DNA from: Haladaptatus caseinilyticus
GTDB lineage: Archaea > Halobacteriota > Halobacteria > Halobacteriales > Haladaptataceae
NCBI RefSeq assembly: GCF_026248685.1
Contig: NZ_CP111036.1
Location: forward strand, 868,001 to 932,000
Direction of reading: 5' to 3'
Length of the DNA stretch: 64,000 nt
The notes beneath the pieces are model-generated. The model did not search any database. It was not told where the DNA came from and saw only the letters and a program-made list of their open reading frames with translations. This document shows positions 14,484-43,042 of the stretch, piece by piece. How positions within the stretch are numbered: the first letter of the stretch is position 1; each line of letters starts with the position of its first letter. The position numbers were made by a program, and so were the translations under genes.

Positions 14484-16709
14484 TCAGGCACGCCTTCCGC
14501 CGAGCGTGAACAGCCACAGGATGGCGAGTCCCAATCCATAGGCGAACGAGACGGGGATGGCGACGAGGAACATCGTGTAGAGGCTGTCCGGGGTCACCAG
14601 TCCCGCAACCGCGAAGGTGCCGACGACGAACACTCGCCAGCGGTCGCGCATCGATTTGTAGTTGAGGATACCACCCGCGTGGAACAGGAACATCGTGATC
14701 GGGATGTCAGCAAGCAGGCCGATACCGACCGTGGTGAGGAAGACGAGCCAGAAGAAGCTCTTCACCCGGTAGGAAATCAGCATGTCCGCGGCGTGAGCGT
14801 CGGTGACGAGCCACGAGATGATGCTCGGAGCGACGAGGCCGTATCCGATCGCGCTACCGACCACGAGGCCGCCGAAGAGCGTCGCGCCCCAGATAAAGAA
14901 CACGTTGCGGTTACCCCTAACGAGGCGTCGCTCCTTCATCGCGGGCCAACCGTAGTACATCACCATCGGAAGGACGGAGACGGCTGCGAGAAGGGTGCTG
15001 ATTTTCACCTCGAAAATGAGCGCCTCGACGGGGTGAAGCGTGACGATGTTGAGTAAGTCGCCTTTCTGGACGATTTCCTGCGGAACACGTCGCGTGAAGT
15101 CGTCGTTGATGTAGCCGATACCGCCCCGGTACAGCCCGACGAATACGCCCGCGAGAACGAGCATGAACACGCCGACGATGCGGAACATCTTCGACGTGAG
15201 ACTCTGGAAGATGAACGCGATGTCGTAGTAGTACCCGCCGATGTCGTCCTCGGTCGTTTCGTCCTCCGTGAAGGCGTTCGCCATGCCCGCCGCAGTGCTC
15301 TGGAGGACGTTTTCATCGTCGTTCGCGTCCTGTTGTTTGGCGACGTCCTCGGCGAGCGGTGCTTCACCGTCCTCAGGAACTCTGGGTTCGTCCGACTCCT
15401 CCGCTTCCTCCTCGTGAACTTCGTCCCACCGGTCGAGGATGAGTTGGGCCTTGTCGGGGTCGTCGTCGTCCATCGCTGCACGCGCGTGGTCGAGCGATTT
15501 GCTCTCGCTCATCTCCTCGAACACTTCGGGTGGGGCTGCACGCACGCCCGCGGCGTCGAGTTCGTCGATATCTAGCTCACTCGGTGCGCCGGAACGTTCC
15601 ATGGTCGAACCCGCTTCGAGCGACGCGAACAGGAAATACAGTACCGCGATAACGAGTGCGAGAAGCGCGACGGCCGCCACGACGACGATGATCGCCGATT
15701 CACGCGGGACGCCGAGTATGGATTCGACGGTCGGAACGTCGTTTATCGGGCGGTACTCCGCCGGGAGTTTGGGCAGCAGTTCGTTCTGAACGTAGACGCC
15801 GCCGCCTCGCGAAATGAATAGATAGGTTCCGCCCGCCACGAGGAGCGTGATACCGACGATGTGGTTCCACTTGTTTCGCACCGTCTTCCGGAGGCTTACC
15901 TCCTCGCTTCCGCGACGGATGGTGACGACGATTTTCGTCAGGTAGAGGCTGAACCCGTAGAGGACGAGCAATGGTGCGGCCCACATGATCTGCGTAAAGG
16001 GATCCGGGGGCGAGAACACTGCACCGAACGTGAAGATGGCGATAACCGCATACCGCCATTTGTCACGGAAGGTTTCATACGGTACGATGCCCGTGTAGCC
16101 GAGGATGCTCATGATGAGCGGCATCTCGGCGGCGAGGCCGAACGAGAGCGTGAGGACGAGAACGAACTCGGTCCACTCCACGATTCCGTAGTTCGGACTG
16201 AACCCCGCGTTGACCGCGTTCTCGGCGAGGAACTTGAACATCAGTGGGAAGAAAAGCGAGTAGCCGTACGAGAGGCCCCCGATGAACAGGAGAATGGCGA
16301 GAACGACCATCGGGATGATCTTCCAGTAGGAAAGGGAGAGGTCGGGATACCATTCGCGTTGACGAAGCGAATCGCGTCCGAGATAGAGCAAAACGGGGAG
16401 TGCGATGAGCGCACCCGCAACCATCGCGATTTTCGCCTGGAGGAGGATAACGTCGAACGGGGTTACCGCGACGATTTTGACGTTGTCCATGACGTGCTGC
16501 GGCATCCCGGAGGTCGTAACGTCCTCCAGAAACGGCCAGATGACCATCGACATCGCGTAGAACGACCCGAGGAACCCGATAACGAACACGATGAAGACTT
16601 TCTGCAGATGTGTCTGCGCAGTCGAAAGCATCGCTCCGAGCGTTTCACGGCCACTAGCGACAGTTTTCGCGGTATCTTCACCGATAACGCTGTTCCCCGA
16701 GGTAGACAT
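14484..16709 (-). CDS. tatC2: Twin-arginine translocase TatC, double-domain (TatCt type)
   Basis: TatC receives folded substrates bearing a twin-arginine signal. This 741-residue protein holds two TatC domains in tandem (about residues 25-280 and 490-735), each with six membrane helices. They are joined by extra helices and a roughly 100-residue acidic linker (EEMSESKSLDHARAAMDDDD region). Domain 1 shows GYTGIVPYETFRDKWRYAV and GAVFSPPDPFTQIMW; domain 2 shows GILNYKSMRDRWRVFVVGTF and GLVTPDSLYTMF. Such fused TatCt proteins are a haloarchaeal speciality, linked to heavy use of Tat export. It is divergent from the single-domain tatC gene. Confidence 0.94.
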   Translation of the reverse strand: MSTSGNSVIGEDTAKTVASGRETLGAMLSTAQTHLQKVFIVFVIGFLGSFYAMSMVIWPFLEDVTTSGMPQHVMDNVKIVAVTPFDVILLQAKIAMVAGALIALPVLLYLGRDSLRQREWYPDLSLSYWKIIPMVVLAILLFIGGLSYGYSLFFPLMFKFLAENAVNAGFSPNYGIVEWTEFVLVLTLSFGLAAEMPLIMSILGYTGIVPYETFRDKWRYAVIAIFTFGAVFSPPDPFTQIMWAAPLLVLYGFSLYLTKIVVTIRRGSEEVSLRKTVRNKWNHIVGITLLVAGGTYLFISRGGGVYVQNELLPKLPAEYRPINDVPTVESILGVPRESAIIVVVAAVALLALVIAVLYFLFASLEAGSTMERSGAPSELDIDELDAAGVRAAPPEVFEEMSESKSLDHARAAMDDDDPDKAQLILDRWDEVHEEEAEESDEPRVPEDGEAPLAEDVAKQQDANDDENVLQSTAAGMANAFTEDETTEDDIGGYYYDIAFIFQSLTSKMFRIVGVFMLVLAGVFVGLYRGGIGYINDDFTRRVPQEIVQKGDLLNIVTLHPVEALIFEVKISTLLAAVSVLPMVMYYGWPAMKERRLVRGNRNVFFIWGATLFGGLVVGSAIGYGLVAPSIISWLVTDAHAADMLISYRVKSFFWLVFLTTVGIGLLADIPITMFLFHAGGILNYKSMRDRWRVFVVGTFAVAGLVTPDSLYTMFLVAIPVSFAYGLGLAILWLFTLGGRRA

Positions 16710-16803: not shown

Positions 16804-17667
16804 ATGGGCGAAGAATCGGAGGCGACAGCAGGAAGCAATCTCTCGAAGTCCCCGAACACGGAGGATATTCGGGAGCCACCGGAGGAAGAGGACCACCTCT
16901 ACGCGCCGGAAGACCCGGAACCGGCGGTCGAGCGACCGAGCCAGCCAACCGACGACCAGGAGATGCCGTTGGCGGACCACATAGAGGAGATGATAAAACG
17001 GCTCGCGGTCATTCTCATCGTCGCGGGCGTCGTGAGCGTCATCACGCTCCCGTTCGCCGAGAAGGTCATCAACTTCCTTTGGTACTCGGTGCTTCCGATC
17101 AGCGAAGGGACGCGTCCTCGGCTCTACCATCCGCTCGCGCTCGTCATGACGGAACTCAAGGTCGCCAGCCTCGCCGGGGTTATCGTCGCCCTCCCCGTGA
17201 TGGTGTACCAAACGTACCTGTTCATGCGCCCTGGCCTGTATCCGAACGAACGCCGATACTACCTCGCCGCCGTCCCGACCAGCCTCGTCCTCGCCTTCGT
17301 CGGTGTCAGCTTCGCCTACTTCCTCATCCTCCCCGCCATCTTCACTTACTTCCTCTCGTACACCCAAAATGCGGAGGTCGTCACCGTCGCGTTCGGCCTG
17401 ACGAAGACGTTCGACCTCATCCTGATGATGATGGGTGTGCTGGCGGTCGTCTTCCAGATTCCGCTGCTCATCATGCTCGCGATCATGATGGGGCTGACGA
17501 CCCGTCAGTGGATGGCCGACCGCCGCCTCTACTTCTGGAGCGGGTTCCTCGGCTTCTCGTTCCTGTTCAGTCCAGACCCGACCGGTATGGCGCCCTTCCT
17601 CGTGGCACTCACGATGGTCGGACTGTTCGAAGGGACGCTGCTCCTCCTGAAGTGGACGGGCAGGTAA
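16804..17667 (+). CDS. tatC: Twin-arginine translocase TatC, single-domain (TatCo type)
   Basis: This 287-residue TatC has an acidic, disordered N-terminal extension (about 55 residues) before the conserved cytoplasmic start MPLADHIEEMIKRLAVILI. Six membrane helices follow, with the family segments MRPGLYPNERRYY and SFLFSPDPTGMAPF. It corresponds to TatCo of other haloarchaea, working alongside TatCt with TatA proteins that are not encoded here. It is divergent from tatC2 with about 95 bases between starts, so the two receptors may share a control region. The start at 16804 is the first ATG after the divergent promoter region. Confidence 0.94.
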   Translation: MGEESEATAGSNLSKSPNTEDIREPPEEEDHLYAPEDPEPAVERPSQPTDDQEMPLADHIEEMIKRLAVILIVAGVVSVITLPFAEKVINFLWYSVLPISEGTRPRLYHPLALVMTELKVASLAGVIVALPVMVYQTYLFMRPGLYPNERRYYLAAVPTSLVLAFVGVSFAYFLILPAIFTYFLSYTQNAEVVTVAFGLTKTFDLILMMMGVLAVVFQIPLLIMLAIMMGLTTRQWMADRRLYFWSGFLGFSFLFSPDPTGMAPFLVALTMVGLFEGTLLLLKWTGR

Positions 17668-17741
17668 CGTTTCATATCGTTTCGTTTCAGCAGTGACACT
17701 CGTCCCCTCACGCAACGATAGCTTTCGAGCATCGTAATCAG

Positions 17742-17748
17742 TTTATAA
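17742..17748 (+). promoter_or_regulatory. TATA-like box of the tandem-hairpin RNA
   Basis: TTTATAA lies in the convergent interval after tatC, about 26 bases before position 17768, where the hairpin element begins. No ORF starts in the right place downstream, so the box points to a non-coding transcript. Purine-rich BRE-like bases upstream are weak. Confidence 0.4.
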
Positions 17749-17767
17749 CTAAGGGGATACGTTGCCT

Positions 17768-17870
17768 ACCTATTGGTAGCGTTCGTGCCTTGCCCTTAGC
17801 TCGCGTGCCAGCAGCTACAGACCGCAGTTCGCGTGCCAGCCAACTGCCACCCTTTGGGTGCGAACGCCCA
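17768..17870 (+). ncRNA. Candidate structured RNA with two hairpins sharing one loop sequence
   Basis: The gap between the convergent tatC and larE genes holds nested inverted repeats. An 11-bp outer stem (two G-U pairs) joins GCGTTCGTGCC at 17779-17789 to its partner at 17857-17867. Inside are hairpin 1 (TAGCT 17797-17801 with AGCTA 17813-17817) and hairpin 2 (GCAGTT 17824-17829 with AACTGC 17842-17847). Both have loops that begin with the same 11 bases, CGCGTGCCAGC. CACCC/GGGTG at 17848-17860 can form an alternative hairpin that competes with the outer stem. A TATA-like box lies about 26 bases upstream. I recognise no family. Confidence 0.45.
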
Positions 17871-17880
17871 TAATCGATTT

Positions 17881-18759
17881 CTACGAGTCGTTCGTCGGAT
17901 AGTCAGCCGCAAAGACGTCTTCGACCACCGGTTCGGCTTGTCGTTCCGACGCACCTTCTGGACTCACGCTACCGGTTCGGTAGCCGCCTAAATCCAGCGT
18001 GACGTGGTCGAAGCCGAGTTCCGTGAGATGGTCGTGGGCGGCGCTGGCGAACTCCTCGTCCAAAGCACGATCGAGTTCTCCCTCGCCGACTTCGATACGC
18101 GCGAGACCGTCGTGATCGCGGATTCGGAACTGCGAAAATCCCCATTGGCGAAGCAGTGCTTCCGCGCGCTCGATGCGTGAAAGTCGCTCTTCGGTCACTT
18201 CCAAGCCGGTCGGGATGCGCGAGGAGAGACATGCCATGGACGGTTTGTCGGCGACCGAGAGCCCATACTTGTCCGCGATGTCACGAACTTCGGCCTTCGA
18301 GATATCGTGTTGAAGCAGTGGCGAGTACGCGTCGAGTTCCTCCACTGCCCGCAATCCGGGGCGGTGACCGGCATCGACGTCGTCGGCGTTCGTCCCGTCA
18401 CAGACGATATCGATGCCGAGTTCGTTCGCTTTCTCGAACATCGTGCCGAGACGCATCGTCCGGCAGTGATAACAGCGGTCGTCGTCGTTGGCGACGAACG
18501 CGGGGTCGTCCAGTTCGCTGAATTCGGCGATTTCGTGCCTGATTCCGATCTCCTCGGCGACGCGAGTCGCATCTTCGAGCTCGGCATCCGGAAGCGTCTC
18601 GCTCTTTGCGGTACACGCGACGGCATCGTCACCCAACGCGTCGTGCGCAACGGCGGCGACGACGCTCGAATCGACGCCACCACTGAACGCGATGAGCACG
18701 CCCTCGCGGTCGGCGAGGTCCCCTTTGACAGCGGCCAGTTTCTCCTCGACGGTCGGCAT
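17881..18759 (-). CDS. larE: ATP-dependent sacrificial sulfur transferase LarE
   Basis: LarE supplies sulfur for the nickel-pincer nucleotide cofactor of lactate racemase-type enzymes. The 292-residue protein has the PP-loop IAFSGGVDSSV (residues about 23-33) and later ACLSSRIPTG. It carries Cys96 and Cys99 (CYHC) plus Cys177, the three-cysteine pattern of LarE proteins that bind a [4Fe-4S] cluster and can recycle, rather than the single-Cys sacrificial form. ATG 18759 (MPTVEEKL) is preferred; ATG 18822 would add 21 unconserved residues. No larA, larB or larC is in the window. It converges on the hairpin RNA and tatC. Confidence 0.86.
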   Translation of the reverse strand: MPTVEEKLAAVKGDLADREGVLIAFSGGVDSSVVAAVAHDALGDDAVACTAKSETLPDAELEDATRVAEEIGIRHEIAEFSELDDPAFVANDDDRCYHCRTMRLGTMFEKANELGIDIVCDGTNADDVDAGHRPGLRAVEELDAYSPLLQHDISKAEVRDIADKYGLSVADKPSMACLSSRIPTGLEVTEERLSRIERAEALLRQWGFSQFRIRDHDGLARIEVGEGELDRALDEEFASAAHDHLTELGFDHVTLDLGGYRTGSVSPEGASERQAEPVVEDVFAADYPTNDS

Positions 18760-21513: not shown

Positions 21514-22644
21514 ATGGCAGACGACCCCGACGAGGGGATGTTGTCGTGGGACGAGTCGGTGTTCCGCGAGGAACACGTCTTCGAAATCGACTACGTGCCG
21601 GAGACGTTCGAACACCGCGCATCCCAGATGCAGAGCTTGCAGTACGCGCTCAGGCCAGCAGTGCGTGGGTCGCGCCCCCTCAACGTCATGGCACGCGGAC
21701 CGCCCGGGACTGGCAAGACGACCGCGGTGCAGAAACTGTTCGATGAGCTGTCGGCCCAGACCGACGTCCGAACCGTCCGCGTCAACTGTCAAGTGGATTC
21801 GACGCGATACGCGATTTTCTCCCGAATCTTCGAGGGAATTTTCGAGTACGAACCGCCGTCAAGCGGCATCTCGTTCAAGAAACTGTTCCGCCAGATAACG
21901 GACAAACTGGTCGAGGACGACGAAGTGCTCGTCGTCGCGCTGGACGACGTGAACTATCTGTTCTACGAAGGGGAAGCCTCCGATACGCTTTACTCGCTCC
22001 TGCGCGCCCACGAGGCCCACAGCGGCGCGAAAATCGGGGTCATCGTGGTCTCCTCCGACCTCAATTTGGACGTTATCGAGGAACTCGATACGCGGGTACA
22101 AAGCGTCTTCCGGCCCGAGGACGTGTATTTCCCGGTCTACGACCGTGAAGAGATCATCGGCATCCTCGGCGAACGCGTCAAACGCGGGTTCCACGAGGGT
22201 GTCATCGGACCGGAGGTACTGGAACGCGTGGCCGAACTCACGGCCGAGAGCGGCGACCTCCGGGTCGGTATCGACCTGCTCCGCCGGGCCGGACTGAACG
22301 CCGAGATGCGCGCCAGTCGAACCGTCAGCCTACAGGACGTGGAAGACGCCTACGAGAAATCGAAGTTCGTCCACCTCTCGCATAGCCTGCACGCGCTGAG
22401 TGAAAACGAGGTTTCCCTCGTCCGGGTCATCGCCGAACACGACGGTAAGCAGGCTGGCGACGTATACGAGGCGTTCCACGACGAAACCGACTTGGGCTAC
22501 ACGCGCTACTCGGAGATCATCAACAAACTCGACCAACTCGGCATCATCGACGCGACCTACACAAACGTCGAAGGCCGCGGTCGGTCGCGGTCGCTGTCGC
22601 TGCGATACGACCCGGATGCGGTGTTGGCGAGATTGGACGATTGA
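21514..22644 (+). CDS. Orc1/Cdc6-type replication initiation ATPase
   Basis: This 376-residue protein has the AAA+ core with Walker A GPPGTGKTT (residues 62-70), Walker B VVALDDVNYLFY, an arginine-finger region and sensor 2 in SGDLRVGIDLLRRAG. A winged-helix domain (about 290-376, YTRYSEIINKLDQLGIID) would read an origin repeat. Haloarchaea carry many orc genes, so paralogue identity and origin use cannot be fixed here. ATG 21514 (MADDPDEG) is preferred over GTG 21502. No clear set of origin-recognition repeats with an AT-rich unwinding element is seen on either side, so this may be an orc away from an active origin. Confidence 0.93.
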   Translation: MADDPDEGMLSWDESVFREEHVFEIDYVPETFEHRASQMQSLQYALRPAVRGSRPLNVMARGPPGTGKTTAVQKLFDELSAQTDVRTVRVNCQVDSTRYAIFSRIFEGIFEYEPPSSGISFKKLFRQITDKLVEDDEVLVVALDDVNYLFYEGEASDTLYSLLRAHEAHSGAKIGVIVVSSDLNLDVIEELDTRVQSVFRPEDVYFPVYDREEIIGILGERVKRGFHEGVIGPEVLERVAELTAESGDLRVGIDLLRRAGLNAEMRASRTVSLQDVEDAYEKSKFVHLSHSLHALSENEVSLVRVIAEHDGKQAGDVYEAFHDETDLGYTRYSEIINKLDQLGIIDATYTNVEGRGRSRSLSLRYDPDAVLARLDD

Positions 22645-41308: not shown

Positions 41309-43042
41309 ATGGACGCCGCGACGGTCAGAGAGCGTGCGAAGGAACTCCCCCGTGAACCCGGTGTGTATCAGTTTTTAGAGGGCGATACCGTCCGGTACGT
41401 CGGCAAAGCGGTTGACCTTCGAGCACGGGTTCGGTCGTACGCAGACCCACGAAGCAACCGCATCGGTCGGATGGTCGAGCGCGCCGACGCGCTCGATTTC
41501 GCGGTGACCGACACGGAGACACAGGCGCTCTTGCTGGAAGCGAACCTCATCAAACGCTATCAGCCGCGGTACAACGTCCGCCTAAAGGACGACAAATCGT
41601 ATCCGCTCGTCCAGGTAACGGGTCACGAATTTCCGCAAATCGAGATTACTCGCGACCCGAATCGTGAGGGCGCGACCGTTTTCGGGCCGTTCACCAACAA
41701 ATCCCACGTCGAAACCGTGGTCAAGGCCCTTCGGGAAACCTACGGAATTCGGGGCTGTTCGGACTATAAGTTCGCCAACCGCGACCGACCCTGCCTCGAT
41801 TACGACATCGGACTCTGCACCGCACCCTGTACGAACGAAATCGGACGCGAGGCGTACCTCGGCGACGTGAAAAGCGTCGAGCGGTTCCTGGGTGGCGAGA
41901 CGGACGTGCTGGTGACCCCCCTCCGCCGGGAGATGGAATCGGCCGCCCAGAACCGCGAGTTCGAGCGCGCGGCCAACCTTCGGGACCGACTCGAAGCGGT
42001 CGAATCGTTCCACGGCGGCGACGCCGATGCGATTTCGTCGCGGACCGACGAACGAACTGTGGACGTGCTCGGTGCCTCGGTCGAAGGCGAACATGCCACG
42101 GTCGCGCGACTCCATAGCGAGCGCGGTCAACTGGTCGACCGCGACCGGCACACGCTTTCGGTTCCGGACGGCGACGACGTGGCCGCGGTGCTCGGCGGTT
42201 TCATTCCCCAATTTTACGCCGAGCGCGACCTACCTGACGCCCTCCTGCTCTCCGAGCGCCCCGACGATACGGACGTACTCGACTGGTTGGAGTCCGAAGG
42301 CGTCGCGGTACGTGTGCCGGGTGCGGGAAGGGAAGCAACGCTCGTCGATTTGGCGTTGAAGAACGCCCGGCGGGGTGCCAACGCTCCCGACGAACTCCGG
42401 GCGTTAGCGGACGGACTCTCGATGTCCGCGATCGACCGAATCGAGGGATTCGACGTGAGTCACGCACAGGGATCGTCCGTCGTCGGCAGCAACGTCGTGT
42501 TTGTCGGTGGATCTCCCGAGAAGTCCGACTATCGACGGAAGAAACTGACTGAAAAAAACGACGACTACGACAACATGCGCGCCCTGATTCGATGGCGCGC
42601 GAATCGGGCAATCGGAGGACACGACGAGCGACCGGACCCCGATTTACTGCTTATCGACGGCGGGAAGGGACAACTCGACGCCGCACGGGAGGCGCTGGAC
42701 GAAATCGGATGGGACGTACCCGCCGTCGGTCTGGCCAAAGCCGAGGAAATCGTCATCACGCCCAACCGAACCTTCGACTGGCCGAGCGACGCCCCGCAAC
42801 TGCACGTCCTCCAGCGAGTACGCGACGAAGCCCATCGATTCGCCGTTCAATACCATCAGACGCTTCGGGATGATGTCTCGACGGAGTTGGACGGCGTTCG
42901 CGGTGTCGGACCGGAAACGCGCCGAAAGCTGTTCCGCCGTTTCGGGAGTTTGGACGGGATTCGAAGCGCCTCGGACGACGAACTGCGTGAAATCACCGGT
43001 GTCGGGGAAAAGACTGTTTCCGCGATTCGGGACCGATTTTGA
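41309..43042 (+). CDS. uvrC: Excinuclease ABC subunit C
   Basis: UvrC makes both incisions around damage recognised by UvrA/UvrB. The 577-residue protein has the GIY-YIG nuclease ([20 protein letters not shown]), the UVR coiled coil ([17 protein letters not shown]), an RNase H-like endonuclease core ([16 protein letters not shown] with [12 protein letters not shown] and [13 protein letters not shown]) and C-terminal tandem HhH ([18 protein letters not shown]). Its length is slightly shorter than the roughly 610 of E. coli. uvrB lies 15 kb upstream. Confidence 0.95.

Follow-up and report, generated by a model that had tools for sequence, protein, structure and literature searches.

A conserved haloarchaeal hairpin RNA predicted to mask the start codons of Tat-exported surface-protein mRNAs

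LhrC of Listeria is a bacterial multi-loop small RNA (sRNA) whose CU-rich loops target Shine-Dalgarno sequences. Convincing targets are known for few archaeal sRNAs, and how translation is controlled on the mostly leaderless or short-leader mRNAs of haloarchaea (72% of Haloferax volcanii mRNAs are leaderless, PMC4983044) is an open question. Among haloarchaeal intergenic sRNAs, sRNA132 of H. volcanii has a phosphate transporter operon as a proposed target (PMC6560208), and a survey of halite communities found conserved haloarchaeal intergenic sRNAs of unassigned function (PMC7002113), with which the RNA described here may overlap. The closest archaeal precedent for that RNA comes from Methanosarcina mazei, whose sRNA162 uses an unstructured linker to cover a ribosome-binding site and counts a transcription factor among its targets (PMC3510493).

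We analysed a 64,000-nucleotide stretch of Haladaptatus caseinilyticus DNA (the window), in which a tandem-hairpin RNA gene lies between tatC and a larE-like gene, the usual position of this RNA in Haladaptataceae. Like sRNA162 (PMC3510493), this archaeal RNA would pair with mRNAs in trans and mask a translation-initiation site; unlike sRNA162, it would use a structured hairpin loop to cover the AUG of apparently short-leader mRNAs, its proposed targets mainly encode Tat-exported proteins and it is conserved across several families. It resembles sRNA132 (PMC6560208) in being haloarchaeal and intergenic with proposed mRNA targets, and differs in that sRNA132 targets the phosphate transporter operon. 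No Rfam 15 family matches the RNA at or near the gathering score. As in LhrC, repeated identical loops would serve as antisense seeds at the translation starts of several surface-protein mRNAs; unlike LhrC, with which it shares no sequence, the seed here would target the AUG plus codons 2-4. An antisense sRNA acting at a translation start is a known kind of regulator; the family, its architecture, its targets and the codon-level coevolution appear to be new. The features of the locus are as follows.

16804-17667, + strand: tatC (PF00902, E 5.5e-46), which adjoins the sRNA gene in most Haladaptataceae
17706-17752, + strand: conserved promoter (26-genome alignment), with upstream element CAAYG..TTTC..GTAAYC and TATA box TTATAA at 17743-17748, then CTAAGG
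17777-17868, + strand: sRNA core, 92 nt (model R1 E 1e-19 to 1e-23; mean column identity 0.97)
17779-17790, + strand: outer stem, 5' arm, GCGUUCGUGCCU (paired in 100% of cells across 24 distinct sequences from Haladaptataceae)
17797-17817, + strand: hairpin 1, TAGCT-CGCGTGCCAGC-AGCTA (stem UAGCU/AGCUA; antisense element CUCGCGUGCCA)
17824-17847, + strand: hairpin 2, GCAGTT-CGCGTGCCAGC-C-AACTGC (stem GCAGUU/AACUGC; antisense element UUCGCGUGCCA)
17856-17867, + strand: outer stem, 3' arm, GGGUGCGAACGC, paired with 17779-17790 (folding and Haladaptataceae alignment)
17876-17882, + strand: T-stretch GATTTCT, putative terminator (TTTCT conserved in the alignment), overlapping the larE stop codon
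17881-18822, - strand: larE-like PP-loop protein gene, convergent (Asn_synthase, NAD_synthase and tRNA_Me_trans matches)

The original prediction was of an 11-bp outer stem enclosing two hairpins that have different stems and loops opening with the same 11 bases. Sequence and folding confirmed the tandem hairpins, with their unlike stems and identical apical loop, and the enclosing stem, which is 12 bp long rather than 11 bp. Each hairpin has a C residue (C17802 or C17830), a GC/GC mini-stem and a hexaloop GUGCCA (17805-17810 in hairpin 1, 17833-17838 in hairpin 2), for which folding gave an unpaired probability of 1.0. The invariant C is a clean bulge in hairpin 1 and faces C17841 in hairpin 2. 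The core alone folded to exactly this three-way structure at -37.3 kcal/mol, a stability equalled by one of 200 shuffled sequences, and the core of a Halorussus relative reached -39.8 kcal/mol, equalled by none of 200. The full stretch 17742-17872 folded otherwise because DNA upstream of the transcript pairs with the transcript. Identical 11-mer pairs within 60 nt are unremarkable on their own (6 in the window versus 0-10 in shuffles); it is conservation (presence in 27 of 28 genomes, column identity and fixed TATA spacing) that lifts the RNA gene above chance level.

In the Haladaptataceae alignment mean column identity was 0.97 over the core versus 0.60 in the spacer just upstream. The TATA box that had been proposed upstream of the RNA held up across 26 genomes: the distance from its centre to the core start is 30.5 nt in 24 and 29.5 nt in the other two, which fits the -29 centroid of the TATA boxes of H. 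volcanii sRNAs (PMC5892119). Further upstream, within 17700-17740, the conserved element CAAYG..TTTC..GTAAYC suggests a transcription-factor site that would control the sRNA in Haladaptataceae. The T-stretch that follows the core contains a TC, as do the T-stretches that serve as intergenic terminators in haloarchaea (PMC7237163). From the sequence, the transcript is expected to start at about 17772-17776 and to end near 17881, and would be about 95-105 nt long. The core has no ATG and its linkers carry 1-2 nt indels in the alignment, which ruled out a coding ORF; with the fixed-spacing TATA box and the T-stretch, this marks an intergenic, non-coding gene having its own promoter and putative terminator. 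A gene at 14484-16709, divergent to tatC, encodes a 741-residue protein that has two fused TatC domains.

By use of BLAST and a covariance model of the Haladaptataceae RNA (model R1), a single copy was found in 27 of 28 sampled Haladaptataceae genomes, which included Haladaptatus, Halorussus and Halomicrococcus; the only genome without a match is 62% complete. Weak matches to R1 pointed to homologues outside the family. Of 392 Halobacteriales genomes, 112 contain the 15-mer AGTTCGCGTGCCAGC; these are almost all Natrialbaceae and Haladaptataceae, and some of the occurrences are plain coding matches. A second model detected the full RNA in 86 of 96 Natrialbaceae genomes, where it is shorter and has one strong hairpin with the same loop and another outer stem, GGCUCCCG/CGGGAGCC. 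Homologues are also found in a few lineages beyond these two families, with stems compensated and the loop unchanged, and family f6 and one genus of family f5 have yet other outer stems that still pair. Models R1 and R2 gave no match in the sampled Haloferacaceae except in one genus. Named records place the RNA in four families: Haladaptataceae, Natrialbaceae, Haloferacaceae and Haloarculaceae. Haladaptataceae alone varied too little for a covariation test. Among 57 distinct sequences, mostly from Natrialbaceae, six pairs were altered on both sides, a result seen in one of 500 shuffles, the covariation score was reached in none of 500, and the loop was invariant. Hence the covariance search advocated at the outset returned compensated stems and a constant loop in relatives. 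A virus or phage origin was rejected: viral contigs with the 16-mer lack the full RNA, and a phage collection gave no match.

In Natrialbaceae the RNA sits after a DUF7344 regulator gene in clusters, often plasmid-borne, that contain a TFB gene and genes for glycosyltransferases, flippases and beta-helix proteins. The DUF7344 orthologue and the RNA are both present in 86 genomes and both missing in nine, with the gene only in one; as the two are adjacent, joint loss alone proves little. A scan of the RNA neighbourhoods turned up ATGGCACGCGAA, complementary to UUCGCGUGCCA, at the starts of beta-helix genes. UUCGCGUGCCA has UGGCACGCGAA as its complement, the stretch with which Tat-exported beta-helix genes start (AUG GCA CGC GAA); in Natrialbaceae these genes usually adjoin the RNA gene. 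All 26 of them found next to the RNA there carry an RRSYLKLAG-like Tat signal. Codon choice at these starts was tested with a pattern open to any synonymous codon. The Ala codon was GCA in 26 of 26, with a usage of 10.6% elsewhere in these genes (naive p 5e-26), the Arg codon was CGC in 24 and the G.U-compatible CGT in two (naive p 7e-8), and the Glu codon was GAA in 22 of 22, with a usage of 29% elsewhere (naive p 2e-12), these p-values being only indicative for related sequences. The accessible loop region formed predicted duplexes of -20 to -52 kcal/mol over the AUG of the target initiation regions, and in most of them the A of AUG was bulged or mismatched between two paired stretches. The complement GCTGGCACGCG proposed as a search query came close: the real target, GC(A)TGGCACGCGA, has an extra A at the AUG, which is the reason that an exact search misses it. 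The exact 12-nt antisense TCGCGTGCCAGC was rejected as a target, having 0-4 other sites per genome (none in several), not above the reversed control. The argument that identical loops on different stems reflect selection for a loop-binding partner stood, given compensating stems, a constant loop and a start-codon target. Family f6, f5 genus g94 and about five Natrialbaceae loci yielded no target close to the RNA.

In the Natrialbaceae loci, among them L270, L266 and L273, the cluster includes a further gene with a Tat signal (MAQNPRT..), whose start, ATGGCGCAGAAYCCCC, is likewise conserved at the nucleotide level. The RNA does not match this start, which another regulator may target. Conservation of a start region alone is thus not proof of pairing.

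Two lineages that at first were apparent exceptions are the strongest evidence. In Halomarina the target starts AUGGCACACGAUUCGGCACGCGAACCGG, with the target motif AUGGCACACGA, and a divergent RNA carrying CCGGUUCGCGUGCCAGUUCGUGUGCCAA lies between an epimerase gene and a wHTH gene in both plasmids read. The target Arg codon CGC has become His CAC, the RNA has gone from UCGCGUGCCA to UCGUGUGCCA and the mini-stem from GC/GC to GU/AC. Mini-stem, loop and target were altered together, so that pairing is kept both inside the RNA and with the target (duplex of -51.5 kcal/mol in Halomarina sp. PSR21). In Haloprofundus halobius, which has the motif at the target start, the DUF7344-glmS spacer contains a hairpin, missed by the covariance models, with a loop antisense to the start over 20 nt with one mismatch. 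On the PSR21 plasmid (L402, minus strand near 42275) the Halomarina sRNA is followed 75 nt downstream by a further hairpin, AACCGGC-GAAUCGUGUGCCA-GCCGGUU, in which 14 nt are perfectly antisense to the start of the same target.

The opposite case is the Natrialbaceae genome G263, which keeps the DUF7344 gene and in which the models found no RNA at or near the locus read; there the target starts ATGCCCCACGAACGG, without complementarity, and the protein is 61% identical to that of a relative. Wherever we say that no RNA was found, this refers to the locus read and its vicinity as searched with these models, and does not prove absence from the genome. Homologues in lineages without a detected RNA (two Haloferax, Halobaculum, two Salinigranum, Halorientalis and Halopiger) also start differently. 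A search within 20 kb of the homologues in Haloferax gibbonsii, Salinigranum and Halorientalis gave no antisense above chance; a 17-nt Salinigranum match was discarded, being the start of a sister gene. Haloprofundus salinisoli keeps the complementary start, and no RNA was found in its DUF7344-glmS spacer. The Halomarina change, the codon constraint and the G263 case argue that the pairing is under selection.

In the 28 Haladaptataceae genomes ATGGCACGCGA occurs 289 times versus 31 for the reversed pattern, a weak control that does not preserve start-codon bias. Because a pattern search was used to find the targets in this family, their codon bias cannot count as independent evidence, and at some of the sites no Tat gene starts. 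The window genome has eight sites. Three are the starts of Tat-signal proteins (L387, L381 and L383); of the others, one opens the leader ORF of a DUF7344 gene and another a small protein resembling a zinc ribbon. RNA-target duplexes with a loop gave -20.7 to -29.3 kcal/mol. Halorussus halophilus and Halorussus vallis likewise have Tat genes with ATGGCACGCGA starts, and Haladaptatus halobius L375, whose annotated start is doubtful, gave no match to the RNA. The leader ORF (42-67 codons, MAREQRN..) starts ATGGCACGCGAG in L384 (G000:C2, about 22185-22310), L341 and L396, its GAG codon matches hairpin 1 (CUCGCG) and in three sampled genomes, those of Haladaptatus, a congener and Halomicrococcus, it has an ATGA overlap with the DUF7344 start, which makes translational coupling under sRNA control possible. 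An antisense site inside the DUF7344 coding region (L287, window genome) was set aside, since the DUF7344 genes read from other families do not keep it; at the leader ORF, the L287 mRNA carries another site that is conserved. The conserved zinc-ribbon-like protein of Haladaptataceae (71-73 residues) also starts ATGGCACGCGA in L382, L388, L395, L339, L352, L356 and L358.

Given these data, other readings of the locus have to be weighed. The start regions might be kept for translation efficiency or for the N-terminal Tat region, the loop match being a by-product of chance or of an old inverted duplication, and the conserved but unmatched MAQNPRT start and the start retained in H. salinisoli without a detected RNA are what such a history would leave. 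However, it fits poorly with a rare codon, GCA, in 26 of 26 genes, with an Arg to His replacement (CGC to CAC) matched by a change in the RNA and with the lack of the motif in homologues from lineages without a detected RNA, and we regard it as very improbable. As little room is left for a protein-binding RNA, in which bulged C, mini-stem and GUGCCA loop would form the site of an RNA-binding protein titrated by two copies, as in a CsrB-like sponge. The invariant bulge-stem-loop is what a protein site would look like, and it is present twice in identical form in Haladaptataceae and once in Natrialbaceae; but the start-codon matches with their synonymous-site constraint, the Halomarina loop that changed in step with its target and the complementarity lost in G263, where the RNA was not found, would all go unexplained, making a sponge very unlikely. 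The mRNA complementarity argues for a mode of action other than that of CsrB/RsmZ-type sponges.

The original prediction also raised mimicry of the 16S rRNA region near position 515 (GUGCCAGC). On such a reading the RNA would bind a ribosomal or rRNA-processing factor. The loop does have an 8-nt identity with the organism's own 16S rRNA, at position 453, but 12% of shuffled 13-mers match 16S equally well over 8 nt, 23S rRNA likewise has an 8-nt match and the loop turns into GUGUGCCA in Halomarina. No antisense match of at least 8 nt to the loop was found in 16S rRNA. Mimicry of or antisense to 16S or 23S rRNA was therefore dismissed as chance level, and we give this reading virtually no credence.

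We conclude that the RNA is very probably a trans-acting antisense sRNA that masks the start codons of a surface-protein regulon. This conclusion is based on the exposed hexaloop, the structure, its conservation, the AUG complementarity, the fixed codons and the RNA-target covariation; from these we infer transcription, pairing in the cell, the order of the pairing steps and a physiological role in surface or exopolysaccharide gene clusters. The hexaloop GUGCCA of each hairpin would pair with UGGCAC, which takes in the last two bases of the start codon (UG) and the codon after it, GCA. Once the mini-stem of 2 bp had opened, pairing would grow to 10-13 bp, UUCGCGUGCCA(GC) with (GC)[A]UGGCACGCGAA. 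The targets would be mRNAs of Tat-exported beta-helix-type surface proteins beginning Met-Ala-Arg-Asp/Glu (AUGGCACGCGA) and, in Haladaptataceae, also the leader ORF translationally coupled to the DUF7344 regulator gene. On these short-leader mRNAs, an occluded start codon would prevent initiation, and repression seems likelier than activation or RNA stabilisation, given the short predicted leaders and a duplex that includes the AUG itself. A broader reading, which we offer tentatively and with some doubt, is of a wide haloarchaeal class of anti-start-codon hairpin RNAs that police a Tat-exported surface-protein regulon and, via the coupled leader ORF, the DUF7344 regulator. If this were true, most members would be invisible to sequence searches, since seed and target evolve together; the Halomarina and Haloprofundus RNAs surfaced only via their targets.

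Here an sRNA has been linked to its targets by RNA-mRNA covariation from genomes alone. The pairing would account for the rare codons at the starts of the target genes and would tie the RNA to Tat export and surface polysaccharide clusters, and it offers a directly testable mechanism, the masking of start codons by hairpin loops in archaea.
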